From Patiria pectinifera (Eukaryota > Echinodermata > Asteroidea > Valvatida > Asterinidae), in assembly GCA_029964075.1 (NCBI GenBank), contig CM057145.1, positions 2,790,001-2,854,000 of the forward strand: a stretch of DNA of 64,000 nt. The letters run 5' to 3'. A model generated the notes under the pieces. The model ran no database searches. It saw only the letters and a list, made by a program, of their open reading frames with translations, and had not been told where the DNA came from. The stretch's first letter is position 1; each line of letters starts with the position of its first letter. Position numbers and translations under genes: made by a program. This document shows, one piece after another, positions 28,177 to 64,000 of this stretch.

Positions 28177-28359
28177 AGGCCCGAGAGTCTAAACTAGGCT
28201 CCAACACCTCGCTATTACGAACCTTTAAGTACACCACCGTTGCCGGCCTCGTCATCCATATCTCAGCGTGTGGCTGGTATGCCTTAGCCTGCGATGGCTG
28301 GCATGATTCTCTACCTAATACATGCCACAACGATAGCTGGGCCCTGCGCTTTGACCTTG
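28177..28359 (+). CDS. tetraKCNG: Exon 1 seen: repeat A S5 and turret
   Basis: The translation contains a hydrophobic S5 with ISACGWYALACDG, followed by a Cys-containing turret ending DSWALRFDLG. The acceptor is TTCACAG (an alternative AG two bases on, at 28179, would give phase 0 as in the matching exon 14). The donor is G|GTAAGC and the exit phase is 1. A diverged duplicate of an intronic repeat lies about 50 bp upstream. Confidence 0.9.
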
Positions 28360-31300
28360 GTAAGCCTAAACAGTCTTTATCTTAGTTTCAAAATATTTGG
28401 CATTTTGTAATATTGAAGTACTAGTTGTAAACCAAACAATGTAAGCCCACTACATGTTCAACTCACATGATTCCGAGTGGTTTTTCACTGGAAGTTATTT
28501 GTTGTATATGTACACAATTTCCAGTGTCACATGACATTTTGACTCCTGTGAAATTCGGTACCAGCACCGTTTTATTGGTTGAACGTTCACAATCCTCACG
28601 TAGGCATTCGCAATACTACCAGTGAGTCAGTATTTCATAGTCCTAAATTCACTCTACACTGCTACATGTGCGTTGTGCGCGACATCACGCAGTACGCGCG
28701 ACGCGCGCGTCAATCTCCAAATAAGGAATTGTCAGAGGGCCTTAACATTGTATAGCTAGAGGGGTGTTTTGTTGATCGAAACCTTGAAAATTTGAAAATT
28801 GTGACTTGTTTTGACGTTTGGACCGAAAGGTTTTTGATTTTTTTTGCCTACGGCTCGGGTAATTATCAGCATCCCGACTCCAACCGGTCTTTAAAAAGCA
28901 GAGTGTTTAAAACCTCCCAATTCCACGTATATTCCCTTAATCAATTACAGCAATATTTTGAAAATCGACACCGATTATTGCAAATTTGTACCGAAGTTGG
29001 TTGCTCTGTTGCGAAAACAAGTAACTAGTGTGCACAACTTTACTTGAAATCCCTATTGTTAATTTCATTTATTCGTAAGCTAGAAAAACAAGTTGGAGTA
29101 CAGTAGAAATATATTGACAGCGTGCACCATTCAGACATACAGTCTACCTAGCCCCACGTATACTACTGCAATTACACTGAAAGAATGAAATTACGGCCAA
29201 ATTACCAGCAACCTAACAGGTCCAATTTCCAGGCAGCACTCTCTTCCAGTAGCTAGGGGCGATATCTTGGCTCTCCTTCGGTACAGCTAGGCCGGACATT
29301 TTGTTTTTGAGCGTTCGACGCTGCAGGCGTTTTGAACCAATGGTTGAAACGCGATACGAAAATTGAAAGTGGCGAGCGGGAAAATAAAAGTTGGAGACGT
29401 TGAGCGATATCGGTTGGCGTAATAATTCGAAGAGGTATAGTTCCGCTATAGTAGACTCAATTTCAGCGCGCATGTGTCCTAGTATTTCTCACGGTGTTAC
29501 AAGTGGAGTACATCATTTGTCACTTGTACGGTTTTTTTTCGTTTGAAGCAACGAAAGTGTACAGAATCTTGAGAAGGGTGCTTAACAACTAACCTGATGA
29601 AGTTTTATCTCGTATCAGTGAATGCTGTACAGGGTGACCCCAAAAAATGCAACCAACCCTTAAAAAAATGGCTTTAAATAAAAAAGGGATCGGTGGATTT
29701 TTATGTCTTAGATATCTTAGGTGTTTTAGGTATTCTTTGAAATACTGAAAAAAAATCATGAAAATAGCACTTCGGGTTAAAATGCCAATTATACAAAAGT
29801 AGTCGTTTTTCATCCTATACACAAGTACTTCAAACAGTGAAACGTTTTACTGTAAGCCTACTGTGCAATTATCCTTCATTTATGCAATTTCTTTAAATAT
29901 TTTGACATATTTATGAAGCTGAAAAAAGTTTAAAATAGGACTAAAAAGTATAAGATACCTGTTCAGGTGGAAAATAGAAGGTATTTCCATCAAATTCATC
30001 TGTAAGGATGTTGTTTGTAAGGATTAGGACATGCACAAAAAGATACAGTTAAAATCCCTTACAGTGGTAATTTTTTTGTGTACAAGAATTTGTTGTGTAC
30101 TTTTACATAATTGGCATATTTTCTCGGCATTACGAGATTTTTGGAACTAGCGAATATAAATGAAAGCAATGACATAAAGGTAATTACAAATTAATACAGT
30201 TTGCTCTGATGAATGATTTTAAAATGTGTGATTAAACGTACCCTAGTGTTTTAAGCCACATTTAAAAGAACAATTGAAAGTGAGGCTTTGAACGCATAAA
30301 TAGTCTGGCACCATCCCAGTTAGCAGCTTACAATTTACAAAATACATTCAGGGAACACGATCAAAAATGGCTTCTTCGGGTACGCAGTCTGCCGACATTA
30401 AACGAACAGGCGTCAGCCTTGGTGAAATAGCTAAACGTTTAAACGTTTAAAAGATTCTACAATATTTGCTCAACGCTTGCAAAATTAACCGCAAAGTCAC
30501 ATCCTTAACAAAAAGGCTGTAAAACTCAACATAATGTATGCACATCGATATGCTGGTTTATTGCGTTTTAATTAAAGCACGAAAACCACTGCGTGCTCCC
30601 ACCGTCCGATTCGATCATTAGAGCACCATTCACGGTCACATGGGTTGCGGAATAGTAGTGTGCCATTACCGTGCCATTATAATTTCACACCAATTGCTGT
30701 CTTAAATGACGCCATATTCCTTCTAGGATTGACAGGATACGGCACGCGCTGCATGCAGTTCCTTATATGGGTTTTTGTGTTGGAGGAACTGAACTGGGAA
30801 CGCCGCCCCATTTTCACGTAGCTCCTAAAAAAAAAAGAATAGTGTACATGTATAAAGCACATGATTAATATGCTTAGAAAAAAAAAACAGGTTTGGGTCA
30901 TTCCATAAATTCAGTTGTAAATATTTCACTGTTGGTAATACTAGGGCAACAAATATCACATTGTAAAGAGGGACATCAAAACTTACAGGTGTAAAACCGG
31001 TGAAATTTCTGATTTACGGAATGAGCCTTACATGAGTACAGGAACCTAAGCTTTTCAGGTTAAAATTGATAATGATTAATTTGATACTTAGATGATAATT
31101 CAGACGATGTTTTACAATAATGGGATAGCCTCTAAATCGAATTGGGTCAAATCCGGTTGAAGTCCGGATCCACCAACTGCGGAATAAAAAGGTCTCATCA
31201 ACCTTAGCCCATGAAAGATTATATCTCTGCATGTAGCGTGCGTTGGGACTATATAAAGAATAGACTGTCGCTGATAATAATCAATATGAGATATCTTCTT

Positions 31301-34300
31301 TCTTATAGGTGCCGATATCAGAAATATCAGTGCTGGAGAGTCCTACGTTATCGCATTATATTGGTCCGTGGCTACTGCAACATCAACAGGGTAAAATAAA
31401 GAAACAATTTCAGTCTTTTTTGTCAATTCCTAAGTTAGTATAAAGCATGTATTCTACAATATTTCTTATAACGTTATTCATTTAACATGCCATGCAATGT
31501 ATTTTTTTAATTCAATCCTTGCAAATGCACCCTTGTGTCCAATTTGACTTTATTGCACTTTCCGTTTTACCATTTTTCAGGGGATTTTGGTGCCTTTTTG
31601 GTTTTTATGCTAAAGCAATTTCTATATTCATGAGCAAAAGTGTGATGCCATTTCAGGCAGACACCTCAATATGTTACAGTATTTTAGCACCTAAAATTGC
31701 CCGAATTTTTGAAATTTTGCTATTATAATTTTCATTTCTTTGGTGATTCGTTGTTGTGCCAGGAAGCCAATGATCCAAATGTATCACAAATGTTTTCAAT
31801 GAACAAAATTTGGATAACCCCTAAACTGAACGGTGTCTTCCTGAAATGACGTCACAGCAACAGCGCCCTCAGTTGTAAGGAAAAGCATGACGTTTTAAAA
31901 AAAATTTAAAGAAGTGCACTTAATAAAATTAACCAAAAAGGGACGTCATATAGTTTTCATACATTTAAGAGGAGTAGAAAGTTGTACAAAATGTGCTCCT
32001 ATGAAAAATGCATGTCTAATGGCGTGCATAATGTGTTGTTATTTTTCCTATTAAAAGGAATATTTGTTGACTCGTAATGCCTTGTATATCTTTGGTGATT
32101 GAATATAGAACATTTATTTTAATGCTGCCCTTCTTTATAATGTGTACATTGTGATCAGAAAAGTACATTATACACAGACTCATAAGTACAAAAGCGACCG
32201 ATTTAACAATGTAGTTTAAGGTTAGGGTGAAGCCTATCAATTTAACTATAATTTCTTCCTGTGCTGAATAAAATGTACTGCAAAAATGGCATTTTGAATT
32301 AACTACATGTATTGAGACTCAACTGTGGCTATATTAATCTTTCATGTTCGGCTAGGTATGGAGATATTAGCGCAGTGAACGCCAGGGAGAAATGGTTCTC
32401 CATTTTCGCCATGCTGTTCGGTGAGGGCGTCTTCTTTGGCATGATCCTGGGTGGGATGGCCTCCATGCTGACCAACTTCGATGCACAGAGGGCGCGCTAT
32501 ACCCATCGCTTCAACGTCATCAAGCAAAGTTTGGTAAGCTCCCGAAAGCAGACCATTTTTTTTTTAAAGGTAACATTGAAGTGGTGATTTTTTTTTATAG
32601 ATTTTTTTATTCAAGCATGGAAAATACCCCATTGGAAAATTGACAAGTCTTGCATGAATGTTTTAGATGACGTCCATCAAGTGATTCCTGTCAGAGCTTA
32701 AAAATACGACGCCGATGGCACATACGAAACACCATACATTTGGTCACTTTTCGGGACAGACAGACTGACCACCAAGTGGCATGTAAAAGCTCCTGCCAGA
32801 GCTTAAAAAAATATGGTGCTAAACTTCTTTTAAAATAACTCTTTAGCACATTTTTTTATCCAACGAAGTTTAATTTGATTGCAGGAAACACCTTTCCTAT
32901 ATTTTAGGGTTCCTTTTGCGCCTCTGCAGCACAAATATCATCCGCCAAAACTGTTTTAGGACCGCGAATAATAAAACACATCTTCAAGAAAATCACTGCA
33001 TTGTTACTATAATACGCCTCATTGCATGGACGTTCGCCTAGTGTAGTTGTCAGTAAAGACGTATGTAAACAAGACCGATACATAAGGCCCCGCCAATGAC
33101 ACACTGCGTGCTTCAGACGCGCGCGTGCACGCGCGTCTGTCATTAATTACGGCTATGATTGGTCAAAACCTCCCACTGGGGCGGGATCTATCCGGTTCGT
33201 TAGTGTGACGTCACCTCCAGCACTTTCTGCACGATTGGAACCGGAAGTTAACGCAGCTCGAGCGTTTGCAGCCAATGGGCGCTAGTAATCAGTGGTGCGT
33301 GCGCGTGTATGACGTTTTTACTAACGAGCCGGATAGCTTTGTCCACAGTGAGCAGTATAAATGAGTTTGTTCTGGCTAGTCGTAAGATATTTTCTGACCA
33401 TTTCAGAGGGATGAAATAGTGACAGAAGATCTGCAGAAGCAAGTGGTGGGCTACTACGAGTACCTGTGGTTTCGCAAGAAGGGCGTCACAGACGATAGTC
33501 TCATCAATGCCATGCCTCTAACCTTTCACGCAGAAGTATCACTGAGTGGCAATAAGTACATCTTGGATAAGGTAAAGTTGGAGTATGCTGTTCAAACCAA
33601 TTGTCTGAATTTGCTTTATTCATCAATGACACATACCCGCAAAGTACCTATCGACTAAATGAAAAACCTTGTTCATCCGTCAGTGAAGATATGGCTGGTT
33701 CCTAATATCCTGTGAAATTATGCCACCAGATTTTTTTTTTATTGAATTCAAACAATCATTGAAGGTGATTTTAAAAAGTGTGCCAGCGAGTGGAACAATA
33801 CAGGGAATCGTTCAAATCACTCGAGTAGTTTTAAAGTAACGAAATTTTGAACACAAACGCCGATTTAAAGTTCTGTCCACGGATCACACAAAAAATAGGT
33901 GTTCTCTCAGCAAAACGAAAACAATTCTCATAGGGATGCGTGTGAATTGTTTTCGTTTTGTTGTCACTTGCCTTTTTTGTGATCCGTGGACAGAACTTTA
34001 AAAGCAATGTTTGTGTTCCAAATCCCGTAATTTGCAAAGTACATGAGTGATTTGAATGATTCTAGCTTGTACTAAAAGAAAGCTCATTGATTGGGCTTTC
34101 ATATCCTACATTTTGAAAGTGCTAATTTACCCTAACCCTAACCCTAACAGGCAAAACGTCCTTCAAAAATCGGTCCTGCTATTTGGGTTTCGTGGTTTTT
34201 GTTTTTTTAGTCACTTTTGTTTTGATAAGATTTGACTGTTTTGATTATTCATCTTTCCAGGCACCGATGTTCAAGGGAATGAGCGAAGGGTTTATGCGCA

Positions 34301-40300: not shown

Positions 40301-43300
40301 TTAAATTTCTAGCAGTCAATACTTTCCAAGTAGTCAATACTTTCCAATCCCACTTATTTTGATATTTTTTAACTGACATGGGTTGACTAATATAATAGGC
40401 CTCTCTCAAATGACATCATTTGCTACAGATCAGCCACGTACCAAGCCTGTTCGGTATGGCGATATTTCACGATATTTCGATTATATTTTCATATCGGAAA
40501 TCGTATCGATCTCATAAAAAAAAATCGGCACATCGCAAAGTCAATCCCTTACAGTTTCAAACCATGCTAAAGCGCCCATGAAAAAAAACAGAAAACAAAT
40601 TCATTCACATTGTTTTTACCGCGATAGGTCTTACCTATTCATTTCCAGTTTTGAAGCGAGCAATGTGACAGCTCATTCGATAATTCATTGTGTTTTATAC
40701 CGCGTGATTGCGGGTTCGAATCACGGTGTTGCACATGTTTTTTTTATTAATATTATTATTTTCTAACCTGAGGCTTGGGAGGATTTTATTAAAAAGGGAA
40801 ATAAAGCTCGAATTTCATATATTTATATTTTTGATTTTCTGTCCATGTTTTTAGAAAAGTATAAAGTCCAAAACGTCATAGCGTATTGCGGATGTCGCAC
40901 GCGCGTTTGGGAGCGGGAGAAAAAATGAATCAAATTTTCCTGCACGTATTTTTCCTGACTCGAAGCGAGCTTCTCTTCCGTGGTTGTGCCTGGGCACTTA
41001 CACTTGCTTAGTGCCAAAGCTGTCCCAAACTTATGAAATCTGTTCATATTTTCAGCAACAAAAAACGCGAAAACCAACTGTTCAGTACAGAACAAAAATG
41101 CGTCACAAGACATTGGACTGATCCATTCATTTTTTTAAAGGGTGTTTCACCTCATTTTTTGAGTTAACATCGTCTTCGAACAAAATCTTTAGAAAAAAAA
41201 ATATTTTGTTAGTTTGTAACGATGAAGAACTTTTTCTGAACCAGGAAATATTTCGGACTCCATTAAAAAAAATATTATTTGTAATTCTGAAAAGATGGAA
41301 ATACTGGTAAATTGTTTTCAGTGAAGCACACCCTTGCCGCAATGGTGTGGGCTGTACTATGCGTGCGCGCACGTGTAGATCATGTCAATGCGGCGTGCAA
41401 TTGCGTGCTTGTGCTTCGTTCTTTCCTCGATATGGATTTCTAATAAATTGCACATTTTTATCCAACATTTCAAGGTAATTTTGTTTTCGATGTTTGAATG
41501 TGGAATTTGTTTTCTACCTAAATTGGCAAAGAAAATGAGACTCTAGTCAAATAAACTTGACGATTTTGTTCAGGACATATTGGGTCTTTTTCGCGGCAGT
41601 GGACATGGTGGATCGTGACTTCGGTCGTGTTTTTGTTTTTTGTTTTTTGTTTTTTTATTCCATTGTTCCATGAATGGAAAAATGACGTCATCACGATAAT
41701 ATCGCGATATCCGATATTTTTTTCACGATATGCCGATTTAATAATAAATGGATATCGAACAGGCTTACCACGTACTTCGGCGTTTTGAGCGTCAACTTGC
41801 ATAACGCGCATTGGCTGCGTCGTATTTCCAACACATTTCGAGCAACAAGCATTTTTTTGTTTAGATCATGTTCAACACTGATTGTGTAAAATACGCAGTT
41901 GCAGTTCTCCTACAGAGATGGCCGTCATTGAGAAAGACCTATATGAACTAACATAACTGAATAACCCGTTGCACTGTGAAAAGTGAATACTCTTATTAGC
42001 TGTCATATGTGCTGGTCCCAGAGGGCCAGCCTATTTTCGGCTTCGTACCTATCTGACTAACTGACTGACTGACGGTCTCCCCGACTGACTGACTCCCCCA
42101 CTGACTCCCCTACGAATGACTCGCTGACAGCCACTTGCTACCTGGGCAGTGCTGTTGTATAGGATACACCCTGGGCGTAATTCCAATGAAGGGGCTTCAT
42201 CCCACCCATTGTGTAGACCAGATGTATGAACAGACTTCCATTGAATAGCCATTCCAAATCGAGTAGAATCTTGTGGACTCTGGGACCAGCTCTGCTAGTC
42301 ATCCATTGTCTGAATTTCTAATACCAAATGCTTGCGTTTTAAATACTGACGTACTAACATTTGCTTGTATATCATGTTCAATAGCAAAGCCCGATAAGGA
42401 TAGGGCAACCGGTAAGATTCCAATATCATTACTTTCATTTTCATGCTGTTTAGAAAATGTTCATCTTGTGATAAAGTCTGTTCTTGTAAACTGTGTTGTA
42501 GTGTCATATGTAGTCTTGGTGTGCAGTGTACAATTTGCTTGCTAGCAGTAAATGTAGTCATAAAAAATAAGTTGTCAATTTGTTTAATGTTGAATCTGTG
42601 TTTAGTCTTGCTTGATTTTAAATGTAGCTGCGTTCAGATTTGACTGTCTTAGAACTCTCAAATGTTTCGTTGGTGGATTCTGTTGTTTTGGTTTTTGTAT
42701 GGTTCATGGTTTGTATGTGTGAAGGGATTGTTCATAAATTCTGTAAGAACAGTTATGAATTGGCATATTGTCATAAAAGTGGTTTGATCTGAAATTGTGT
42801 TCATAATTATTCAATAATATATTCATAATTATGCATACATTCATGATTATGCATACATTCATGATTATGCTTGTGATTACTGTTACTTGGTTTTGGAAGG
42901 TCGATTGTAAGTTGTTCATTGATTAAATGTGTATGATTATTGCTGGGTATGCATATATTCGTGATCATGCATATTCATGATGATCGTACTGTAGAGGGTC
43001 CATCCTCAGCTTGGGCAGTAGTGGGAGGATTTTTGGGCGTTGATTATGGATGCATATTCATGATCATGCATATTCATGATGATTATTATTCATACTGGAG
43101 AGGGTCCATCGTCAGCTTGGTCAGTGGTGGGAGGATTTATGGGAGTTGATCATGGATGCATATTCATGATCATGCATATTCATGAACATGCATATTCATG
43201 ATGACTGTTTTATGATTTGTACTGTAGAGGGTCCATCGTCAGCTTGGTCAGTGGTGGGAGGATTTCTGGGAGTTGATTACTGAGACCGTGGTCATGCCAG

Positions 43301-55300: not shown

Positions 55301-58300
55301 CAATAGTAAGGACAAAAAAAATATTCGGTCTCTCGTCAGACCAAAGTTCCAGAATTGACGCGGCCACGCAGTTTTTTTTTTTTTTTTTTTTGCTTTTTGT
55401 TTTTTCTTCAAGCTTGGATTGTACAGACAAGGTGGGGTACATTTTTTGCTTTTTTGGTGTCCTCATGTACATTGGTGTCCTCCATAATTTGCCTTGGTGC
55501 TTTCGATCATTTGCCTTGGTGCAATTTCCCATTCCTTGGTGCTCTTTGGTAAAAAAAATTAAGGAGGTGCAGAAATAGAGGGCGCTGTTGGAGCTACCGC
55601 GGAACATTTTGGGAAAAAAAAAGATCGACGCGCATGATTAAAATCGACGCGTGCGCTGACCAGAGACCGACTTATTTTTTTTTTGGCCTAAGCGTGCTTT
55701 GATTATCATGCATTTTTCATTCCTTTTGTGTTTTTTCCTACAAATTATATCTGCTTCTTTGCTCTTCTCATCAGCAGTTTGGATGTGGGATATTAATGTA
55801 CATTTCAAAGAAATTTCACTTCGAACAGCTTTCAGCAACCGCTTGACATAGAAAGGCATCTTTAGTGTAGTTCAGACTTGTTGCATTTATATTGCTGGGG
55901 CCGATTTCACGAAACTCGTCTCATCTTGCGACTCATCTTAGACCTTAAGACGGGTCCCCGCTCTAAGATCGATCTTAGCTAAGACGCATCCTAAGACTGA
56001 TTTCACTAAACCCATCTTAAGCAAGATGCATCAAAACTACCAATTTGATGGCTGTTTCATGTTTGTTTTTACCACTTGACGAAACAGTCGTTGAAAAGAA
56101 TGCGCAAAACCAACTTCCCGCAGATCCGTGCATAGAACACAAACTTTCGCCAGAAAAAATACTCAACTCAATAAACTTCACACGCAGGGTAGAGTCATTC
56201 TTTCACCCCGTTTCATCACTCTATTTAAAAAAAAAAAGTGTTGGCATAGGCTATAATTAAATTTGGTTGATAAGCTTTTTTTATTAAAACTACCCACGTA
56301 TCTGAAATCTTTTTAAATCTGTTACTCCAAGCCAACACTCGTCTTTAACGGCAATGATTTCCAGACGACATACAAATTAACGCACGCATTAATGAGATAA
56401 GACAACCATCAGACCGATCTTACATGTAAGTTAAGACAAGTTCAGCTACGTTGCTGAGGAAGTTAGGATGTGTTGAACGCGTCTTAAATTTGCTGAAATT
56501 GATCCTAGGACGAGTCGCAAGTTAAGGAGAGTTACCCTTCCTAAGATGTGTCTTTAGTGTTTCGTGAAATCGGCCCCAGCACTTTTAATGCACTGTTGGT
56601 CCGTGTGTCAATATTTTGTGAGATGTTAACTTGTCGTTCCTGCCGTTTGTAGTGGGTTGGAGGCAACCGTCGCCCATCGGGAGAAGGACCGTAAGGAGAA
56701 ACAGGAACGCAACGAACGGTCTGAAAATCTGTTTTTGTTGACTTGTGCAACGTGAATCCCAATCACACACCCTATTAATTTGCTGCTAAAATGTACCCTT
56801 GCACTTCAGCTCCGTGGCATCATCCCTGGAAACATTCGTAACATTAGTTAACAGATTCTGTGGATTGTATTGCAAAAATATAAGCACACCCTTCCAAGAA
56901 TTATCCCATGAATGCAATTGGAGCATTTGAGTAATGTTGTGCGTTCATGTTCCATTTGCCACATGGACGCGGACTCACAACATTTTTCGGAGTTCCACGC
57001 GCACGAGTGGGCTAATGAATTTATCTTCAAGCAAACTTGACGCACAATAAAAATGGAACATGCTGCTGTACACGAACTTTTTAAAAATTATCCTATTACT
57101 AGTGCAGGGCCCGTTGAAAATTTGCCTGTTCGGAAGGGGCATGAGGACTGCTCATACAAACAATGTATGACTCATTGGTGTTGAGTCCTCCACAAGTTGA
57201 ACGCACACTCACAGGTTAAACGCACACTTTGTACACGTCGTCATCCCCTGACACTAATATTCACCCATACTGGAAAATGGTATCGCCCTAAAATGCGTGT
57301 ACTCGTCCTTTTTCCATTGTTGCGTCATATTGAGCACGCGCGCTTAAGCTCAAACATGACGTAAACAATTGAAAAGGACGACAGTGGGTGGTGGTCTGGG
57401 CTTTAATACTGCCGTGTTTTCCTCAGAAAATGCTGGTTTCTTGCAGCTTTTTCAAGAACCGCTCGTCCAAACCACTTCAAACTTGGCACTGCACATTCTG
57501 TTGTCCCGAGCAATACACCCGCCGATTTTCAACTTCATATGGTGCCCGGTTCTGGAGATAATCGAAATACAGACAGACAGACAGACAGAGATTTCTGGAA
57601 TTATAGTTAGATACGTGCGTGCAGGGGGAACAGCGCATGCATCTTAGAATAGCGCGATACACGGATTGCGATATGGACTGTGGTTTACATGATATTGTTA
57701 TATTGTGCGCTTGGATACTGTAATTTTATTGGTCTAGAATGGCCAAGTGTCTGGTCTATAAAAATGCATGTCACACACGTGTCCCTTTTTACGTGACAAT
57801 CAGTGATATTGGACTGTGTTTATTGCGCGCATTGGGTGTGCGTATGGAAACTGCCGCCGCGCGTGTTCAAAATGTTATATTCCACATCACAGCAGTCAAC
57901 AATTGGTAGATATCACACTCTTGTTGCCATGGTACAACCAATCAGGAACGAGGATTCAAGTTTGCTTGAAGATTACCACGTATGTAGCTAATTAGTGCAG
58001 TACTGTGGTCAGTGCTTTAACATGCGTTTATTTGCAGTGTCATATTCATAATCAAACAAAAATTCCATTGCACTGCCTGTTTTACTCCAATATGTAACTG
58101 TGCCATTTGTTTAATGAAAAGTGACATAATGTAATTTTTTTCAAAGATGGTAGACGATTTACTTTGTATAATTTGCATGTATTTTATTATAAGAAGTTGG
58201 GCAATAAACGTTTTAGCCATTGATTAAAATGTTGAAAATACAACTACCGCAATAGATCACTTAATCATAGCAATGTAATTGTTTAACGAGCAAACCATTT

Positions 58301-61300
58301 CATTTACAGCTTACCTTAAAACTATTGCAGTTATTTCTAGTTTACCCATCCTAGCCTACTAGTAATACCCTTTGCCTGCAGCCATACCCTACAGTCGTTG
58401 TACCCCTACATAATCCAAGTCCGTACAAGTCATGACAAGCTTGTTGATCACAAGTTATGATTGACGTGTGATGGACTTGTGTTTGACTTGTGTTTGACTT
58501 GTGATGGACTTGTGATGGACTTGTGATGGACTTGTGATGGACTTGTGTTTGACTTGTGATGGACTTGTGACTAACTTGTGATGGACTTGTGTTTGATTTG
58601 TGACTGACTTGTGATGGACTTGTGACTGACTTGTGATGGACTTGTGATGGACTTGTGATTGACTTGTGATAGACTTGTGATGGACTTGTGTTTGACTTGT
58701 GTTTGACTTGTGATTGACTTGTGATGGACTTGTGATGGACTTGTGATGGACTTGTGACTGACTTGTGATGGACTTGTGATGGACTTGTGACTGACTTGTG
58801 ATGGACTTGTGACTAACTTGTGACTAACTTGTGATGGACTTGTGTTTGATTTGTGATGGACTTGTGATGGACTTGTGATGGACTTGTGTTTGACTTGTGA
58901 TTGACTTGTGATGGACTTGTGATGGACTTGTGATGGACTTGTGATTGTCTTGAGATGGACTTGTGATCAACTTGTGGTTGACTTGTGATAGACTTGTGAT
59001 GGACTTGTGTTTGACTTGTGTTTGACTTGTATTTGACTTGTGATTGACTTGTGATGGACTTGTGATTGACTTGTGATGGACTTGTGATTGACTTGTGATG
59101 GACTGGTGATGGACTTGAGATGGACTTGTGATCAACTTGTGATTGACTTGTGATGGACTTGTGATTGTCTTGAGATGGACTTGTGATCAACTTGTGGTTG
59201 ACTTGTGATAGACTTGTGATGGACTTGTGTTTGACTTGTGTTTGACTTGTATTTGACTTGTGATTGACTTGTGATGGACTTGTGATTGACTTGTGATGGA
59301 CTTGTGATTGACTTGTGATGGACTGGTGATGGACTTGAGATGGACTTGTGATCAACTTGTGATTGACCTGTGATGGACTTGTGATTGTCTTGAGGTGGAC
59401 TTTTGTTTGACTTGTAATTGATGATTGACTTGTGATTGAGTTGTGATGGACTTGTGTTTAACTTATAAATTGTCTTGTGATTGTCTTGTGATTGTCTTGT
59501 GATTGTCTTGTGATGGACTTGTGATTGTCTTGTGATGGACTTACAAATTTGGATTGCATAATAATTCTTCCCAGTTACACGAATCACAGAGTGAATATGC
59601 AATGCCTCTTAAAAAAAACTGTGGTATGTGCATGTACCATCAACAAAATGCTAAAATATCGAAATAGTTCTTTCAAATTTATAATTGTTATTATACAATC
59701 TTCAAACTGACAAAATAACAACACACAGATGACTAAATTTATATTCTGAAGTAATGCTCTGTGTTAATTTTGCAACTTATTCGAATTTGATTGGATATTA
59801 AAATCTTTTATCTCTTTAAATTTATTATTTTTTTTATTTGTGAATAGGCAATTCAAAGAAGCAGCCGAAGATGAGGAACATTTGAAGGAATTACGCAACG
59901 CCTCGCGACGCCAGCATGAATTGGATGTCATTAGAGGTAAAGTCATCACATGATCAATTTGAGGTATAGTCACATGATCAATGCGAGGTAAAGTCACATG
60001 ATCAATTGACTCCGTTCAACAACAACAACGGAGGGCGTTTTTTGAAACTCTTGGTTTCTTGACAGTTTGAGTCAAATTTGTAAATTCTTAAATTTGATTT
60101 TTGTTTTTTAAATAGACACTGATGATCTTCAGACTGATAACTCAGTGGAGGCAACATCCCACCAACCAACGGACGCTTCTGTCAAAGTCTTTGATAAGTG
60201 AGTGACAATTATGGCTGACTTAGTTCAACCATTAACTTGTAATCTATTGGAAATTGATTTGACGGTTGGAAGAATTGTGCTTGTGTTCTTGGGCAAGATG
60301 TTTTATCACAATTGCCCCTCTTTACCCATGGCACATGGGTTCAAACCCTGACAGGGGAACATGGTGCTTGTGGTCTTGGGCAAGACACTTTACCCATGGC
60401 ACATAGGTTCAAACCCAGACAGGGGAACATGTTGCTTGTGTTCTTGGGCAAGACACTTTACCCATGGCACATAAGTTCAAACCTAGACAGGGGAACATGG
60501 TGCTTGTGTTCTTGGGCAAGACACTTTACCCATGGCACATGGGTTCAAACCCTGACAGGGAACATTTTGCTTGTGTTCTTGGGCAAGACACTTTACCCAC
60601 GGCACATGGGTTCAAACCCAGACAGGGGACATGGTGCTTGTGTTCTTGGGCAAGACACTTTACCCACGGCACATGGGTTCAAACCCCGACAGGGGAACAT
60701 GCATGCATGGTGCTTGTGTTCTTGGGCAAGACACTTTACCCGTGGCACATGGGTTCTTAACCCGGACAGGGAACATTGTGCTTGTATTCTTGGGCAAGAC
60801 ACTTTACCCACGGCACATGGGTTCAAACCTAGACAGGGGACATGGTGCTTGTGTTCTTGGGCAAGACACTTTACCCACGGCACATGGGTTCAAACCTAGA
60901 CAGGGGACATGGTGCTTGTGTTCTTGGGCAAGACACTTTACCCACGGCACATGGGTTCAAACCTAGACAGGGGACATGGTGCTTGTGTTCTTGGGCAAGA
61001 CACTTTACCCGTGGCACATGGGTTCTTAACCCGGACAGGGAACATTGTGCTTGTGTTCTTGGGCAAGACACTTTACCCATGGCACATGGGTTCAAACCCT
61101 GACAGGGAACATGGTGCTTGTGTTCTTGGGCAAGACACTTTACCCATGGCACATGGGTTCAAACCCCGACAGGGGAACATGGTGCTTGTGTTCTTGGGCA
61201 AGACACTTTACCCACGGCACATAGGTTCAAACCCAAACAGGGGCCGGAACATGGTGCTTGTGGTCTTGGGCAAGACACTTTACTACAATCACCTCTGTCC

Positions 61301-64000
61301 AACCAGGAGTATAGATGGGTACCTCTTGGGCTAGAGGTTTCCAGTAATCTCGATCTGCTGCAGAAATCTGGTCTTACGGCCTGATGAACATGACTAATAA
61401 TTATGAAGTGCAACACATTTTTATATTTTCTGGACATTTTTTTGACAGGAGTTCTGAAGATTACACTGAGCCTCTCAGTCAGCTAAGTCTTGTAGGCAGA
61501 CTGTTCTCCAAGCTGCTTATGAGGTACGTAGAATCCCAGTATGAAAGATTCAGTCTTAAACTCAAATATAATTTACAGTCGATTTTTAATTTGATAGACT
61601 TGCGCTTGGACAGTAGAGGGCGCCCTGCGACCACTTTGGAGAGTTCTTGTGTGAGGAACAGACTGCATGCACGTATTGAGTCATGTATCGTCAGTCCACC
61701 TAAAACGACGAGGATATGTTTTGACGCACTCGCAGTCAATTTGCGTTGGACAACACGTGCGCGTTGCAAGCGTTATCTGCGTCAATTATGGTGACTCGAG
61801 GATATGCATATGGCGCAAAGTATGTTTGACTAATTTTTTCTGATATGGGGTGATTCTGTAGCATCAACGCAAAGAGACATTGAGGTTCAGGGTTTGACCT
61901 TATCGGTAGCACACTAGCCAAATGCGCGTTAAAACAGCGGCGGGCTAGTCAAAATCGTTCTCTAAGTATTCGGCCTGGCGAGTCAAAATCATCGAAAAAG
62001 GCATGCAAGTTTTTTGGCGTATCTGCGGATTTCTGCATTTTTGAAAAAGCCGGTCTTAGAAAAAAGAAAAATCTGATACTGATGCGCATTCAGCTTGTTT
62101 CATGCTATTCATAAGATGGAATTTGCGTCGGGGTGATGTAAATCACTATTAGGTTTTGCCCTTCAGTGACATATAAACGCTCAGTGTGTTACCTCCCGAG
62201 TGAAAGTTGGAAATAATCACTCGGGTGGGACTCGAACCCATGACCTCCTGCTTTCTAGTGCAGATGTCTTACCACTCGACCAACGAGCTTGCGGGATCGA
62301 TCTGCTGGTTTGAATCTGTTTCATGCCGTTGCGCTGCCAAATCTTGTGCTGAAATCGCTAGGGTAAAAATGAAAGGAAGAACATGGCCTGGCACTGTGTT
62401 TTGTACAGGTCTAGGTACGTAAAAACAACGCTATAGAATACAAAGGCAGATATGCAAATAGCCGTACAAAAGCCGTACTAAATTTCGAGTTTTCCATAGG
62501 TTTGTGCACAAACATGGATGCGTCGAGCAGGGTTCATTTGTACATTGAGTCGGCGCTCTAGTAATATAATATAGCTCTGTGCGCACTGTTTGATTGACAT
62601 GTAAGAAAGGTTGCTCCATATTTTAAACAATTTCCATTTTTCAATTTTTTGATTATGCAGCCGTGCGTTGCTACCAAGTGGCACGTGGTTCAAGCGCTGG
62701 GAAGCAGTCCGTGTTGCCGTGGCGATCATCATGGCGTTCACCGTCACGCTACAAGCGTCCTTCTCCCACATGGATGTTGCATTATGGGTCATCAATTATT
62801 CGCTGGATCTGATCTGCTACGTTGACATGTGAGTGAAAATAAACAAAAGAAGAAAATGACTCGTAATTTTAAGGTAGAATGGACCATTTGTCATTTTGTG
62901 TGTTTTTTTTTCGTTTGAAGCAACAGAAGTGCTCAAAATTTAGAAACGGGTGCTTAACAACTAATCCGGTGAAGTTTTAGCTCAGTGAATGATGAATATT
63001 CTAAGAAAACAATATTCCAGGATCTCGATTTCAGTGCGAGAATTACCGAGTCAATTTTTTGAATTGCGCTCACTCGCGACACGATCCTGAAATCAGCATT
63101 ATTCTCATTCAGCTGATTGTAGCTACGTGATGTCACACACGGAACCGACAATTCCCGCTAATAATAGCAACCGCGCATGTGCGTGTGCGTCTTGTCACGT
63201 GCATGTGCGTCGTGTCAATGCTTGCATGCACCCGTTCATGGATTCGTCCAATTGACCTATCGCGGTTTGCGAGTTACCCTAAGGAATTTTTGTACGTTAA
63301 ATTTTGTTTGTCTCAGATTTTGCGAGATTCGCACCCATTTGTAAGTGGACAATATTCCACAAGTTGCATTGAAAATTTCCAAAAATGTGTCACTTGACAC
63401 ATCTTTGGATATTAGCTTTTTTTATTACCTTTATTGATTTTCCAAAATAACAGCACGCCAGAAGGAATCATTTAATGGGGAGTTTAGTGTCATTACTATC
63501 TTTAAACCAGGTAAACGTTTTAGCTATAATTTCATCGTTTTTTGGGTTTTTTTAAGGATAGTCTGTGAATGGTCCACACGACCTTTAATTGTGGATGAAA
63601 AACTAACTTGTTTTGCTTTGCTTGTTTCAGGTATTTGAAATTCCACACAGCGTTTTACAACGAGAACAACGTCCTAGTAACGCATCCACTCTCCACAGCC
63701 AAACATTACTTCAAGTAAGAAAACCTCTTAATTTGTTTAAGTACTCGTCATACATATTCATGACAAAAGGAACCACTTTTATTGGCTGATTCCCACAAGT
63801 GCAATGTGGCTTATCTAGTTCCTAGACTCTCAACAGTGCAGCAGTAGTGAGGTTGCTTGTGGTACCACACTAAATTCACTACATTGTTTACAACCTAGCA
63901 AGTACACTTCTACATAATTTTCAAATTCTTGGAAGAGTGAAATTAATATTTTTATTGATTTAATTTTCGACTGTACAGGACCAACTTTCTGATTGACTTA
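28177..64000 (+). CDS. tetraKCNG: Multi-repeat K+-selective cyclic-nucleotide-gated channel gene (CNGK / tetraKCNG-like), 26 exons, partial at both ends
   Basis: The exons join into 1074 codons without a stop, and every donor phase fits the next acceptor. Residues are counted from the GCC codon at 28179. Repeat A: S5 (about 13-36), pore with TSTGYGD (88-91 = GYGD), S6, C-linker (to 202), CNBD (203-311, Glu273 and Arg282 in the phosphate cassette), linker 312-395. Repeat B: S1 (about 425-449), S2 (about 470-495), S3/S4 (to 562), S5, pore GYGD 652-655, S6, C-linker, CNBD (769-878, Glu838/Arg847), acidic/basic helical linker 879-982. Repeat C: S1, S2 and the start of S3 (983-1074). In the known family four such repeats in one chain form a whole plasma-membrane K+ channel opened by cGMP; in sea urchin sperm it hyperpolarises the flagellum during chemotaxis. 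GYGD separates it from Ca2+-passing CNG channels (GET-type filter). Distinct tandem genes are less likely, because the frame stays open through both linkers. The 5' end and 3' end lie outside what I can identify. Confidence 0.9.
28360..31308. other. Intron 1
   Basis: Holds a short R1 copy at about 29530-29600, the dispersed repeat at about 30200-30380, and CpG-rich alternating GCGCG sequence near 28675-28715. No exon recognised. Confidence 0.6.
31309..31390 (+). CDS. tetraKCNG: Exon 2: repeat A pore helix
   Basis: Encodes GADIRNISAGES followed by YVIALYWSVATATSTG, the pore helix and the start of the selectivity filter. The intron splits the first Gly codon of GYGD (GG|G). The acceptor is TTATAG and the donor GG|GTAAAA. 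Intron 1 before it is 2.9 kb and holds dispersed repeats only. Confidence 0.93.
32356..32533 (+). CDS. tetraKCNG: Exon 3: repeat A filter, S6 and start of C-linker
   Basis: Opens with the rest of the filter (YGDISAVN) and continues through a hydrophobic S6 (FGEGVFFGMILGGMASMLTN) into FDAQRARYTHRFNVIKQSL, the start of the C-linker. The donor is TTG|GTAAGC and the exit phase is 0. Intron 2 (about 1 kb) shows no feature I recognise. Confidence 0.93.
33188..33336. mobile_element. 149-bp MITE in intron 3
   Basis: Begins CTATCCGGTTCGTTAGTGTG and ends ACTAACGAGCCGGATAG. CpG-rich, with TGACGTCA near the left end. No ORF. Confidence 0.85.
33407..33571 (+). CDS. tetraKCNG: Exon 4: repeat A C-linker
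   Basis: 55 whole codons, phase 0 at both ends. Contains LQKQVVGYYEYLWFRKKG, which matches in length and pattern the C-linker signature of CNG/HCN/EAG channels (LQ.RV..YY.YLW...KG). Ends EVSLSGNKYILDK. A 149-bp MITE ends about 70 bp upstream of the acceptor. Confidence 0.95.
33808..34060. mobile_element. Foldback element in intron 4
   Basis: Arms contain TTTAAAGTTCTGTCCACGGA and its complement, plus an inner pair GCAAAACGAAAACAATTC / GAATTGTTTTCGTTTTGT. About 250 bp, without coding capacity. A CCCTAA tract follows at 34129-34148. Confidence 0.85.
34129..34148 (-). repeat. Interstitial CCCTAA tract
   Basis: Three perfect CCCTAA units in intron 4. Confidence 0.9.
34261..34407 (+). CDS. tetraKCNG: Exon 5: repeat A CNBD, first half
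   Basis: 49 codons, phase 0/0. Begins APMFKGMSEGFMRMLSLEIK and ends NMYFIQRGEVE, the first beta-roll strands of a cNMP-binding fold. It has exactly the length and phase of exon 18 in repeat B (147 bp). The family motif YEG...GxEMYFI is partly replaced here (AIRNEICHNMYFI). Confidence 0.95.
34408..37753. other. Intron 5
   Basis: Holds a perfect 40-bp palindrome (36711-36794) and a family-B MITE copy at about 37395-37590 (GTCAAATTTTTG, TTTCGAGCAACA, CGCAGTTG.AATTGTCCTACG). The rest is unassigned. Confidence 0.6.
36711..36794. repeat. Perfect 40-bp palindrome with 4-bp loop
   Basis: Arm 36711-36750 starts CTGGAGTTACCCAGCCCTGA; arm 36755-36794 is its exact reverse complement. The loop is TCTG. 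Confidence 0.98.
37754..37819 (+). CDS. tetraKCNG: Exon 6: repeat A CNBD beta-roll, ends in FGE
   Basis: 22 codons, phase 0/0, acceptor ATTTCAG and donor GAG|GTATGC. Encodes VLSAEDDDTP and ISLRHGKLFGE. The intron falls directly after the Glu of the phosphate-binding cassette; repeat B has no intron at this place. Intron 5 before it is 3.3 kb and contains a perfect 40-bp palindrome. Confidence 0.9.
38177..38291 (+). CDS. tetraKCNG: Exon 7: repeat A CNBD phosphate cassette and C-helix start
   Basis: Encodes VSLVFSMPRTNSIRA then AAHCDLMVLDKADLQNVLHH. The Arg-Thr pair of the cassette is kept (Arg282), nine residues after Glu273, the same spacing as in repeat B, so cNMP binding looks possible. 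The donor is GAAG|GTTAGT, phase 1. Confidence 0.93.
38430..38980 (+). mobile_element. SINE family S1, three tandem partial copies filling intron 7
   Basis: Three units of about 160 bp carry CTTGGGCAAGACACTTTACT, CAGGAGTATAAATGGGT and CTGCAGAAAACTGGT. The last ends in the SINE tail (GAGCGCTCTGAGACCTTGG, CTATATAATTATTATTG). The centre resembles the CORE/MIR SINE consensus. Confidence 0.9.
38986..39126 (+). CDS. tetraKCNG: Exon 8: C-helix and linker between repeats A and B
   Basis: Begins VARKLQRIAEERCDAAGRLE, a charged helix typical of the region after a CNBD, then a basic linker (SKSLRRLS). The acceptor TCTAG follows directly on a SINE tail. The end at CCA A|GTAAGT keeps phase with exon 9. 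An internal GCAG|GTGAGG could act as an earlier donor, but its phase would still have to fit. Confidence 0.8.
39410..40170 (+). repeat. Intron 8 minisatellite, about 30-36-bp units
   Basis: Units of the type ACTATACCACTCAAAGCAGG plus CAATATTTGT, about 20 copies, diverged. Ends about 10 bp before the acceptor of exon 9. Confidence 0.93.
40181..40290 (+). CDS. tetraKCNG: Exon 9: linker between repeats A and B
   Basis: Encodes RHSVTQANMRHDQFGKKSME then AFDIEELVSVHHGSCAA, polar and without known motif. The acceptor is TTTTCAG and the donor GCA|GTAGGT. The assignment rests on phase (2 in, 0 out), an open frame and good splice sites. A minisatellite runs almost up to its acceptor. Confidence 0.75.
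40396..41950. mobile_element. Family-B MITE split by a hAT-like insertion
   Basis: Outer parts 40396-40436 and 41769-41950 together match the family-B copies at 37395-37590 and 46736-46940. The insertion (about 40437-41768, 1.33 kb) has ends CAAGCCTGTTCGGTAT and ATATCGAACAGGCTTA and a repeated flank CCACGTAC (8 bp), as expected for hAT elements. No transposase recognised. Confidence 0.75.
42045..42300 (+). repeat. Dispersed repeat, second copy of 6090-6315
   Basis: ACTGACTGAC stretch, GGGCAGTGCTG and GACTCTGGGACCAGCTCTGC match the left copy. Confidence 0.7.
42800..43227 (+). repeat. ATGCATATTCATGATC satellite with two truncated copies of the exon 10 start
   Basis: The exon 10 acceptor and about 50 bp of exon recur at 42995 and 43101, each followed by ATGCATATTCATGATCATGC units. 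Copy 1 has an in-frame TAG after eight codons; copy 2 runs into TGA in the satellite. Confidence 0.92.
43228..43390 (+). CDS. tetraKCNG: Exon 10: repeat B pre-S1 and S1
   Basis: Encodes RVHRQLGQWWEDFWELITET, VVMPGSRFAKLWERG and the hydrophobic S1 (VLAITLLISVLYPYCASFI). MPGSRF.K.WE is the usual start of S1 in CNG-type channels. Acceptor CTGTAG, donor TCG|GTGAGT. Two broken copies of the acceptor plus exon start lie upstream at 42995 and 43101. Confidence 0.93.
43921..43962 (+). CDS. tetraKCNG: Exon 11: repeat B S1-S2 loop micro-exon
   Basis: 42 bp, encoding ANSGARQAPNVDIN in the short extracellular S1-S2 loop. Acceptor CATTCCAG with a good pyrimidine tract; donor AACG|GTAGGA. Phases 1/1 fit exons 10 and 12, so skipping it would keep the frame. 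Confidence 0.82.
44100..44170 (-). repeat. tRNA-like SINE head, copy T2
   Basis: Same type as 19709-19782. On the minus strand the acceptor stem GGCTGGA/TCCAGTC pairs with one wobble, and box A and box B are kept, but the T stem is broken and the loop is again ACGGCAA with C33. Confidence 0.65.
44346..44465 (+). CDS. tetraKCNG: Exon 12: repeat B S2
   Basis: Encodes DYADDGYSGNLVLMTLMYIM then DFVLLFDIIVRLRTAVSTPN. The S2 pattern (YIMDFVLLFDIIVRLRT) matches CNG-family S2 helices. Acceptor GATAG, donor AACG|GTAATT. A tRNA-like SINE head on the minus strand lies in the intron just before. Confidence 0.93.
44590..44945. repeat. Half foldback MITE M1 joined to dispersed repeat, intron 12
   Basis: 44598-44690 matches the left half of M1 (AATCAGATGATGAGGATTTA, GTGCAATGGAAAGAATAAT). 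44700-44945 is the inverted partner of 4790-4960. Confidence 0.7.
45028..45135. mobile_element. Foldback element before exon 13
   Basis: GTAATGACGTCACGCGTTGT TTACATGCGC is mirrored by GCGCACATGTAAACTAAGCG TCACGTCAT, with an inner CAGGTGG / CCACCTG pair. It ends about 54 bp before exon 13. Confidence 0.85.
45189..45364 (+). CDS. tetraKCNG: Exon 13: repeat B S3 and S4 start
   Basis: Encodes GTYKDFKSIRDHYVRSLGFV then LDVVAILPLDFFSLLVPQGG and NALYFLSLNRLVKAWR. DVVAILPLD is the S3 signature, and LNRLVKAWR is the start of S4 with few charges. The donor AGG|GTCAGT is weak and sits 13 bp before a long 11-bp satellite. Acceptor TTTACAG. Confidence 0.92.
45378..45625 (+). repeat. 11-bp satellite (TCCATCACAAG), about 22 units, intron 13
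   Basis: Nearly perfect head-to-tail units with a few variants (CACTAG, CAATCAC). It starts 13 bp after the donor of exon 13. The reverse-complement satellite fills part of intron 20. Confidence 0.97.
45846..45988 (+). CDS. tetraKCNG: Exon 14: repeat B S4 end and S5
   Basis: Encodes MPNYFKNLEKDLDVNIATIR then FFKFFIYIALLSHWSSCLWY and LVTCDTGA. SHW.SCLWY is the S5 end typical of CNG channels (HW.AC.W). Acceptor TTTAG, donor GC|GTAAGT, phase 2. Intron 14 after it is 3.9 kb, the longest in repeat B. Confidence 0.94.
46049..46152. repeat. Short foldback element, intron 14
   Basis: CTTGGTTCAAGACGTTA is mirrored by TAACGTCTTGAACTAAG, about 100 bp in all. Confidence 0.8.
46340..47005. mobile_element. 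Mariner-like TIR element with a nested family-B MITE
   Basis: Ends ACGAGGGGTGATTGA and the diverged complement TCAC.CACCCCTCGC, typical of mariner elements; the inverted ends continue for about 65 bp (CAGTTTTGACTGATAT). 46736-46940 is a family-B MITE. No intact transposase. Confidence 0.7.
47865..48175 (-). mobile_element. SINE family S1, near full-length
   Basis: On the minus strand: tRNA-like head with box B (GGGTTCGAACCC), CORE-like centre (CTTGAGCAAGACACTTTACT, AGGAGTATAAATGGGTACC) and tail (AAGCGCTTTGAAACCTTTGG, TATAAAGCGCTATATAAGC). It shows the family's full layout. Confidence 0.9.
48590..48852 (+). repeat. About 265-bp dispersed repeat, copy 1 (second at 54410-54677)
   Basis: Both copies start GAGCTCCCAGCCT and end GACTGTTTAAACAGT, with AGTTTCCTGCTTTT and TGAAATATGATCTGACTGTT between. 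Most bases agree. Copies lie in introns 14 and 18 in the same orientation. Confidence 0.9.
49437..49556. mobile_element. Foldback MITE family M1, copy 3
   Basis: TGCAATGGTAAGAATAATTT is mirrored by AAATTATTCTTTCCATTGCA. The same family as at 15.4 kb. Confidence 0.85.
49865..50122 (+). CDS. tetraKCNG: Exon 15: repeat B turret, pore and S6
   Basis: Encodes a Pro/Thr-rich turret (PKVPTTDVPMSGTTPSP), the pore helix and filter (YITALYWAAATMTSTGYGD) and S6 (GAMLIGLLLYGYCLSSIAATLAN). The filter is that of a K+ channel. In repeat A the same part is split over two exons (82 + 178 bp, against 258 bp here). Donor AG|GTTTGA is weak. Confidence 0.95.
50263..50540 (+). mobile_element. SINE family S1, copy in intron 15
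   Basis: tRNA-like head (GTGGCCTAGTGGTTAGGG, box B GGTTCGAATCC), centre (CTTGGGCAAGCCACTTCACC, CACCCAGGAGTATAAATGGG) and diverged 3' part. Confidence 0.88.
50969..51085 (+). CDS. tetraKCNG: Exon 16: repeat B C-linker, first part
   Basis: Encodes RVNFQEKLFAVQEFMKDHNL then KLNLQHRVVKYLGLVFRRH. LQHRVVKYL corresponds to the C-linker LQ.RV..YY of repeat A. Acceptor ATCTAG, donor CACAG|GTAGGT, phase 2. Confidence 0.93.
51245..52045 (+). repeat. Dispersed repeat R1 with a 274-bp insertion, intron 16
   Basis: R1 parts at 51245-51400 and 51675-52045 match 62900-63575. The insertion is flanked by a 12-bp duplication TTCCCAAGTCTT, and on its minus strand carries a hammerhead-like core (see findings). 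Confidence 0.8.
52258..52357 (+). CDS. tetraKCNG: Exon 17: repeat B C-linker, second part
   Basis: Encodes GEVMPGGMRLMHDMPIQLQQ then EIAYEDAQETLGQ, the MP..LQ.EI part of a C-linker just before the CNBD. Acceptor TGATAG, donor CAG|GTACGA, phase 1 in and 0 out. Repeat A encodes the whole C-linker in one exon (exon 4). Confidence 0.9.
52983..53200. mobile_element. Foldback element, intron 17
   Basis: GTGAAAACGGCG and ATGGTCAAAAACTAGTTTGTC-type sequence are mirrored by GACAAACTGGTTTTTGACCA and CGCCGTTTTCAC. Confidence 0.85.
53392..53538 (+). CDS. tetraKCNG: Exon 18: repeat B CNBD, first half
   Basis: 49 codons, phase 0/0, the same size as exon 5. Encodes VPLFKDCDAAFLRMLALKTH then AYLFTPGDMIVYEGDMGREM and YFIRRGTCE, a textbook CNBD start (PLF..., PGD.I...GD.G.EMYFI..G). 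Acceptor TTTCAG, donor GAG|GTATGC. Confidence 0.96.
54410..54677 (+). repeat. About 265-bp dispersed repeat, copy 2
   Basis: Partner of 48590-48852; see there. Confidence 0.9.
54866..55050 (+). CDS. tetraKCNG: Exon 19: repeat B CNBD phosphate cassette
   Basis: Encodes ILSKDLTRVTSTIGPGQY then FGEVGLIFGDYRTATVRA and SYCELLMLKRSDLDEVLQHF. FGE..L.....RTA is the cNMP phosphate-binding cassette (Glu838, Arg847), so binding looks intact. Acceptor GGACCAAG after a T tract, donor AA|GTAAGT. Its counterpart in repeat A is divided into exons 6 and 7. Confidence 0.95.
55892..56580. mobile_element. TIR element of about 690 bp, intron 19
   Basis: Begins GGGGCCGATTTCACGAAAC and ends TTTCGTGAAATCGGCCCC, with CTTGCGACTC-type subterminal repeats (CATCTTAG, CCTAAGATG). 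A 71-codon ORF inside is not a transposase I know. No clear target duplication. Confidence 0.8.
56653..56718 (+). CDS. tetraKCNG: Exon 20: charged helix after repeat B CNBD
   Basis: Encodes NGLEATVAHREKDRKEKQER then NE, strongly charged and probably helical. Acceptor TTTGTAG. The donor CG|GTCTGA is poor, but the phase (2 out) fits exon 21 and without splicing the frame stops 14 codons later. A TIR element ends about 70 bp upstream. Confidence 0.75.
56860..57640. repeat. Dispersed repeat fragments and (ACAG)n, intron 20
   Basis: 56900-57060 and 57600-57720 share pieces with 47540-47700 and 52540-52680 (for example CGATAC.C.GATTGCG.TATGGAC). A short (CAGA)n lies at about 57572-57590. No exon. 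Confidence 0.55.
58436..59545 (-). repeat. 11-bp satellite (CTTGTGATGGA), about 100 units, intron 20
   Basis: Head-to-tail CTTGTGATGGA with variants CTTGTGTTTGA, CTTGTGATTGA and CTTGTGACTGA. A longer block of about 200 bp is itself repeated (58940-59130 and 59160-59370). It is the reverse complement of the satellite in intron 13. ORFs of 100-180 codons here are spurious. Confidence 0.97.
59848..59936 (+). CDS. tetraKCNG: Exon 21: charged helix in the B-C linker
   Basis: Encodes QFKEAAEDEEHLKELRNASR then RQHELDVIR, which continues the charged helix of exon 20. Acceptor GAATAG after a long T tract, donor AGAG|GTAAAG. The donor and about 24 bp after it are repeated twice more in the intron. Confidence 0.88.
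60116..60197 (+). CDS. tetraKCNG: Exon 22: acidic B-C linker
   Basis: Encodes DTDDLQTDNSVEATSHQPTD then ASVKVFD, acidic and probably disordered. Acceptor AAATAG, donor GATAA|GTGAGT. Phase 2 in, 2 out. Intron 21 before it is only 179 bp. Confidence 0.85.
60271..61395 (+). repeat. SINE S1 with its 68-bp box-B/CORE piece expanded to about 14 units
   Basis: Units contain GGTTCAAACCC (Pol III box B), GACAGGGGAACATGGTGCTT and CTTGGGCAAGACACTTTACC. Twelve of 14 units keep GTTCAAACC; units at about 60750 and 61021 carry GTTCTTAACCC. The array ends in the normal SINE 3' part (CAGGAGTATAGATGGGTACC). Confidence 0.95.
61449..61523 (+). CDS. tetraKCNG: Exon 23: B-C linker
   Basis: Encodes KSSEDYTEPLSQLSLVGRLF then SKLLM. 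Acceptor TTTGACAG, donor GAG|GTACGT. A 68-bp SINE-derived array and its SINE 3' part end about 65 bp upstream. Confidence 0.85.
61524..62660. other. Intron 23 with a tRNA-like SINE head
   Basis: On the minus strand, 62219-62294 has box A (TGGTCGAGTGGTAAGA) and box B (GGTTCGAGTCC) with loop CTAGAAA (AGA at the anticodon place), but no pairing acceptor stem and no long variable arm as in tRNA-Ser. I read it as a SINE head. Confidence 0.55.
62661..62828 (+). CDS. tetraKCNG: Exon 24: repeat C S1 and S2 start
   Basis: Encodes SRALLPSGTWFKRWEAVRVA then VAIIMAFTVTLQASFSHMDV and ALWVINYSLDLICYVD. LLPSGTWFKRWE is the standard lead into S1 of a CNG channel, which shows that a third repeat begins here. 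Acceptor TATGCAG, donor AT|GTGAGT. Confidence 0.94.
62900..63575 (+). repeat. Dispersed repeat R1, most complete copy, intron 24
   Basis: Runs from TCGTTTGAAGCAACAG through GGATCTCGATTTCA, CAGCTGATTGTAGCTACGTG and CCAGAAGGAATCAT to the pre-exon region. It aligns with 51245-52045 without the insertion, which shows that the insertion there came later. Confidence 0.8.
63631..63714 (+). CDS. tetraKCNG: Exon 25: repeat C S2-S3 loop
   Basis: Encodes MYLKFHTAFYNENNVLVTHP then LSTAKHYFK. The loop pattern (FHT.FYNENN.LVT....A..YFK) fits the cytoplasmic S2-S3 loop of the family. Acceptor TTTCAG, donor CAA|GTAAGA. Confidence 0.93.
63979..64000 (+). CDS. tetraKCNG: Exon 26: repeat C S3 start, cut by the window edge
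   Basis: The last 21 bases encode TNFLIDL after a shared Lys codon, the start of S3. Acceptor TGTACAG. The exon and the rest of repeat C continue beyond the window. Confidence 0.85.

Follow-up and report, generated by a model that had tools for sequence, protein, structure and literature searches.

A CNGK (tetraKCNG) gene model with four channel repeats in the starfish Patiria pectinifera

We analyzed a window of 64,000 nucleotides from the starfish Patiria pectinifera (C17:2790001-2854000). All positions are given in window coordinates, and those that are negative or above 64000 lie outside of it. Since the gene found there runs past both ends of the window, 50 kb of upstream and 40 kb of downstream sequence were added. 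The resulting model has 43 exons on the + strand, from -3147 to 83570 (C17:2786853-2873570, Table 1). Its coding part amounts to 6,366 bases including the stop, i.e., 2,121 codons with no internal in-frame stop, and all 42 junctions are GT-AG. The coding span is 86,718 bp (~87 kb), so the window sits within one gene. The protein has four complete 6TM-pore-CNBD repeats in one reading frame. The part of the model inside the window accounts for 2,858 coding bases and includes repeat 1 minus S1-S4, the entire repeat 2, and the beginning of repeat 3.

A previous reading of this window, made from the sequence only, had placed a single gene with several complete channel repeats between 28177 and the end of the window at 64000. 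Position 28177 is indeed the start of an exon, but the gene starts upstream and ends downstream of this interval, and only repeat 2 is complete within the window, those on either side of it being partial. The three repeats that had been described do follow one another on the + strand; the whole gene has four. The 26 exons counted at the time become 22 exons touching the window, the last of which is cut. The view that the gene is the main content of the window was right: it is the main coding content that we found there, as 1-28176 corresponds to intron 1 and a Pfam scan of nine of the 21 long ORFs of the window matched the pore exon alone.

Table 1. Features of the locus, in window coordinates.
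Feature	Start	End	Strand	Remarks
Exon 1: ATG + S1-S4 of repeat 1	-3147	-2637	+	C17:2786853-2787363; outside window
Intron 1, 3' part	1	28176	+	whole intron -2636..28176
Exon 2: S4-S5 linker (KLGSNTS), S5, turret of repeat 1	28177	28359	+	
Exon 3: pore helix of repeat 1, ending ...ATSTG	31309	31390	+	
Exon 4: YGD of repeat-1 filter + S6	32356	32533	+	
Exon 5: C-linker, repeat 1	33407	33571	+	
Exon 6: CNBD first part, repeat 1	34261	34407	+	Pfam match
Exon 7: CNBD middle, repeat 1, ending FGE	37754	37819	+	
Exon 8: CNBD second part, repeat 1 (VSLVFSMPRT...)	38177	38291	+	
Exon 9: CNBD helix end + linker repeat 1 to 2	38986	39126	+	3' partner uncertain
Exon 10: S1 of repeat 2	43301	43390	+	acceptor uncertain
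Exon 11: S2 of repeat 2	44346	44465	+	
Exon 12: S3-S4 of repeat 2	45189	45364	+	
Exon 13: S4-S5 linker + S5, repeat 2	45846	45988	+	
Exon 14: pore (MTSTGYGD) + S6, repeat 2	49865	50122	+	
Exon 15: C-linker A, repeat 2	50969	51085	+	
Exon 16: C-linker B, repeat 2	52258	52357	+	
Exon 17: CNBD first part, repeat 2	53392	53538	+	Pfam match
Exon 18: CNBD second part, repeat 2 (FGEVGLIFGDYRTATVRA)	54866	55050	+	
Exon 19: CNBD helix end, repeat 2	59848	59936	+	
Exon 20: linker repeat 2 to 3	60116	60197	+	
Exon 21: S1-S2 of repeat 3	62661	62828	+	
Exon 22: S2-S3 linker, repeat 3	63631	63714	+	
Exon 23: S3 of repeat 3	63979	64055	+	window end cuts at 64000
Exons 24-43: remainder of repeat 3 + entire repeat 4		83570	+	outside window; end is the stop
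tRNA match	19710	19782	+	in intron; ARAGORN: tRNA-Ala (GGC)
GACTCG-rich tandem array	24279	24940		within intron 1
U5 snRNA match, full length	35293	35412	-	antisense in intron 6; 88 bits
tRNA match	44099	44171	-	in intron; absent from ARAGORN
11-base unit array	45379	45626		CAAGTCNATCA or complement
11-base unit array	58458	59542		CAAGTCNATCA or complement
14 copies of 67-bp unit	60320	61283		unit contains GGGTTCAAACCC
tRNA match	62217	62289	-	in intron; ARAGORN: tRNA of no determined type

The exons were found by an all-against-all comparison of the open stretches of the + strand, from 20 kb on. Among the matches listed from 28 kb to 83.5 kb, S5 and pore pieces recur four times, and pieces of the C-linker and CNBD are recurrent too. 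Targeted searches located S1-S4 of repeat 1 at -3231..-2620 and added the linker exons, the repeat-1 exon ending in FGE, and a short exon for S4-S5 of repeat 3. Splice sites were picked by score, subject to a phase condition, and the chain of exons is open and in phase throughout the model, as the previous reading had claimed for its exons. When the top-scoring donor and acceptor around each junction were chosen blindly with respect to phase, the phases were compatible at 38 of the 42 junctions (one third expected) and both splice sites were the same as in the model at 37 junctions, with misses at junctions 8, 9, 14, and 28; the search ranges were anchored on the phase-conditioned model, so this test is not independent of it and its P value is not to be taken literally.

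The weakest point of the model is the junction between exons 9 and 10, in the linker between repeats 1 and 2. A 106-bp tandem repeat is found at 42955-43199, and a decayed copy of it reaches the acceptor of exon 10. Other weak points are the low-scoring sites around exons 13, 14, 28, and 31. A search for an additional turret exon for repeat 2 revealed none that was convincing. The joins between repeats are predicted ones, and one may ask if the locus is instead made of four K+ channel genes in tandem, each having a single repeat and being transcribed separately. Every repeat alone is plausible as a channel, and it is in the linker exons, which were chosen to fit phase, that the model is least certain. 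Yet, no in-frame stop is found in the model from exon 1 to 83570, all three linkers read through in phase, and the short stretches that match the four-repeat CNGK of the sea urchin Arbacia fall in repeats 1, 2, and 4 as well as at the extreme C-terminus (see below). This makes a tandem cluster extremely improbable relative to a single gene with four repeats.

The first exon of this gene raises a similar question. It is 31 kb upstream of exon 2 and ends 2.6 kb before the window, followed by an intron of 30,813 bp (30.8 kb) that far exceeds the other 41, the second longest having 4.8 kb. Hence, exon 1 could belong to another gene, in which case repeat 1 would have a different voltage sensor or none. 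However, exon 1 has a good donor after S4, in the phase that exon 2 needs, and repeat 1 including this exon passes Pfam with a match across residues 48-300. Crude motif searches for S3/S4 over 10000-28400 gave nothing convincing, no S1-S4 match better than exon 1 was found in -9999..28200, and there was no channel match between C17:2787266 and 2822345, i.e., no other one between exons 1 and 2, among the best candidates scored. A foreign origin of exon 1 therefore seems very improbable, and we kept it as the start of the CNGK model.

The repeats correspond to residues 36-507, 531-1004, 1033-1510, and 1636-2121. The comparison of the translated exons with channel and cyclic nucleotide-binding profiles, which had been proposed as a check, was positive in every repeat: all four are above the Pfam cut-offs for Ion_trans (PF00520, E-values from 1.7e-17 to 3.4e-25), Ion_trans_2 (PF07885), and cNMP_binding (PF00027, E-values from 1.7e-14 to 6.6e-19). 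Each S4 has about three regularly spaced Arg/Lys, as judged by eye. The four pores carry GYGD, at residues 259, 748, 1266, and 1866, within the filters ATSTGYGD, MTSTGYGD, GASVGYGD, and LTSTGYGD (repeats 1 to 4), and the preceding residues are Thr258, Thr747, Val1265, and Thr1865. The two GYGD pores previously recognized in the window are those of repeats 1 and 2, the first being interrupted by an intron (...TSTG to 31390, YGD from 32356). The phosphate-binding cassette with Gly-Glu...Arg is kept in repeats 1-3 (FGEVSLVFSMPRT, FGEVGLIFGDYRT, and FGEISLVFSCSRT), the first two of which have the complete CNBDs of the window, where the Glu/Arg cassette had been correctly identified. The cassette of repeat 4, GEFIDDINLLYDVPRRT (aligned letters IDDINLLYDVPRRT), is non-canonical, with Asp-Asp opposite Gly-Glu; since a Gly-Glu precedes it by four residues (GEFIDD), the cassette could also be aligned differently, with an insertion. 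In the alignment, the C-linker of the third repeat is free of long inserts. The linker of repeats 3 and 4 is rich in Asn and Asp. The protein ends in QTVV (residues 2118-2121, in exon 43, outside the window), a tail that fits a class I PDZ-binding motif.

The identity between repeats ranges from 31.0 to 35.0% and is highest between repeats 1 and 3 (35.0%). Repeat 1 was reported to be closest to repeat 3, and repeat 2 to repeat 4, in a previous study (PMC7576140). Here, repeats 2 and 4 share 31.6% identity, which is lower than the 33.5% between repeats 2 and 3. All four repeats have an intron in phase 0 where the CNBD begins. The C-linker intron at alignment column 344 (phase 2) is found only in repeats 2 and 4, and the intron at column 320 in repeats 1 and 3, while repeat 4 has one close to it at column 317. 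Other introns are shared differently: the one at column 427 occurs in repeats 1 and 2 and the one at column 154 in repeats 2 and 3. Hence, the intron pattern agrees only partly with the published kinship. In a tree of eight rows, the branch holding the four repeats is weak (74/82) and the order of the repeats is without resolution.

Four-domain Nav/Cav channels also have four 6TM domains but possess neither CNBDs nor GYG filters, and the CNBDs and GYGD filters found here rule out a channel of this type. The single-repeat CNG (CNGA/CNGB) and HCN channels share with the repeats described here the succession of 6TM, C-linker, and CNBD, but have one repeat per protein instead of four. When solved structures were searched with repeats 1 and 3, the top matches included CNGA3, SthK, CNGA1, and 5v4s. 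The 60 best PDB matches of each search (out of 207 and 221, respectively) were all CNG, HCN, KCNH, plant, and bacterial channels, and the CNGK name was absent from them. The filters of metazoan CNG channels were described as TIGE and that of HCN as CIGYG (PMC7576140), and the filter of the CNG channel of this genome is TIGET. A single-repeat CNG channel is ruled out by the four repeats in one frame and by filters that are GYGD and not of the TIGE type. We also searched the genome (613.5 Mb in 1,020 contigs) with repeat 3. Among the best 50 candidates scored there were 26 matches, of which 20 are on C17, all in the CNGK gene, and the remaining 6 correspond to distant channels located on different contigs; none of these candidates was a second CNGK copy.

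Sea urchin CNGK (ApCNGK of Arbacia punctulata; Sp-tetraKCNG) has four repeats in one protein and G(Y/F)GD filters (PMC4749565), and the starfish gene has the same organization. We compared ApCNGK by means of its published primers (PMC4749565), which we translated with the exception of primer #4436. The primer upstream of pore 1 encodes KLGSNTA in the frame that we chose as the fitting one, versus KLGSNTS at the start of exon 2. The mutagenic primers encode ATSVGYGD, MTSVGYGD, and LTSVGYGDI, versus ATSTGYGD, MTSTGYGD, and LTSTGYGDF here, and their Val is a designed change at positions of native Thr (PMC4749565). The tagging primer encodes ...LRQTVV before the tag, versus ...PKQTVV here, both ending in QTVV. 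Among three further primers, two are at most weakly similar and one has no resemblance. The matches follow the order of the protein: linker, filters of repeats 1, 2, and 4, and C-terminus.

The filter Thr that were mutated in ApCNGK are T252, T801, and T1986, and three of the four Arbacia filters carry Thr, a residue present in seawater CNGKs, except that of the sponge, and absent in freshwater ones (PMC4749565). The starfish gene has this seawater pattern, with Thr/Thr/Val/Thr and repeat 3 as the exception. Its filter Thr are at positions 258, 747, and 1865, versus 252, 801, and 1986 in ApCNGK. Those of repeats 1 and 2 are thus 489 residues apart, versus 549 in ApCNGK (60 closer), and those of repeats 2 and 4 are 1,118 residues apart, versus 1,185. 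As these spacings are below those of ApCNGK, either the linkers are shorter in the starfish or an exon is missing from the model, possibly in the linker that joins repeats 1 and 2. The CNGK/tetraKCNG design put forward in the sequence-only reading holds, since the parts outside the window complete the four repeats and the ApCNGK primer stretches match in order. Hence, the gene is almost certainly a CNGK (tetraKCNG) gene, encoding a single protein of ~2,121 residues, in which the four 6TM-CNBD repeats would be arranged as a pseudo-tetramer with one K+ pore at its center. It is a clear member of this known family and not a new kind of gene. We found no description of a cloned starfish CNGK gene in the open-licence literature, including the accessible parts of PMC10394420 and PMC10120453.

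By analogy with the sea urchin channel, we infer that the starfish CNGK would be K+ selective, gated by cGMP, expressed in sperm, and produced from a single transcript. The GYG motif alone is no proof of K+ selectivity (PMC7576140) and is also found in HCN filters, so this selectivity is deduced from GYGD together with orthology. The CNBDs could also have lost their response to cyclic nucleotides. Zebrafish CNGK (DrCNGK), which is likewise a four-repeat K+ channel with four CNBDs, is insensitive to cyclic nucleotides and gated by intracellular pH even though its CNBDs were called canonical (PMC4749565), and the cassette of repeat 4 is altered in the starfish. However, DrCNGK lacks, like the other freshwater CNGKs, the pore Thr residues that the starfish gene has in repeats 1, 2, and 4; the C-linker of its third repeat carries an insert of 42 residues, where none is seen in the aligned starfish repeat; and it has Ala for the conserved Arg in the CNBD of repeat 2, where the starfish keeps Arg (PMC4749565). 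Considering that the cassette is kept in repeats 1-3, an unresponsive channel gated by pH is unlikely and we favor a CNGK gated by cGMP.

In Arbacia CNGK, cGMP acts through the third CNBD only (PMC4749565). Because the cassettes of repeats 1-3 are intact and repeat 4 has Asp-Asp, ligand control might differ in the starfish: more than one cGMP site would contribute, and repeat 4 would be ligand-free or differently liganded, unlike in the single-site sea urchin channel. We regard this as doubtful. The Thr residues found in three of the filters (repeats 1, 2, and 4) predict a block of the outward current by intracellular Na+, as was measured in Arbacia CNGK (PMC4749565).

The introns of the gene contain a number of other elements (Table 1). 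The U5 snRNA match in intron 6 is one of 10 in the genome. Arrays of the same 11-base unit as in the window are found outside of it at about 64 kb, 93-98 kb, -43 kb, and -17 kb, and some arrays are near exons, e.g., 15 bp past exon 12. The GGGTTCAAACCC sequence of the 67-bp unit resembles a tRNA-type B box, and stretches related to this unit are present at 38.4-38.9 kb and 50.3 kb; the unit and these stretches are perhaps derived from SINEs. A kinesin-like gene is apparently located upstream of the CNGK gene, on the same strand (by eye).

Elsewhere in the genome, there are 4 matches to CatSper-beta exons and an exon that best matches the sperm Na+/H+ exchanger (61 of 86 aligned residues identical). 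An HCN exon is identical at 59 of 73 residues to the Ih channel 2ptm, the S. purpuratus channel, and at 48 of 72 residues to the HCN4 chain 2mng. The exchanger and HCN exons both point to an echinoderm as the likely source of the DNA. Taken with the CatSper-beta exons, they show that the genome codes for partner proteins of the sea urchin pathway. By analogy with Arbacia, cGMP would bind a CNBD and open the pore, the resulting K+ efflux would hyperpolarize the sperm membrane, and the sperm Na+/H+ exchanger and CatSper would next raise pH and Ca2+ and thereby steer the flagellum (PMC4749565).

With this analysis, an entire CNGK gene is modeled exon by exon, and the same genome has exons of CatSper-beta, a sperm-type Na+/H+ exchanger, and HCN. 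In sea urchin sperm, CNGK is the step that converts cGMP into hyperpolarization, and the starfish gene offers testable points: the Thr/Thr/Val/Thr pattern of the filters, the altered cassette of repeat 4, and the QTVV tail.
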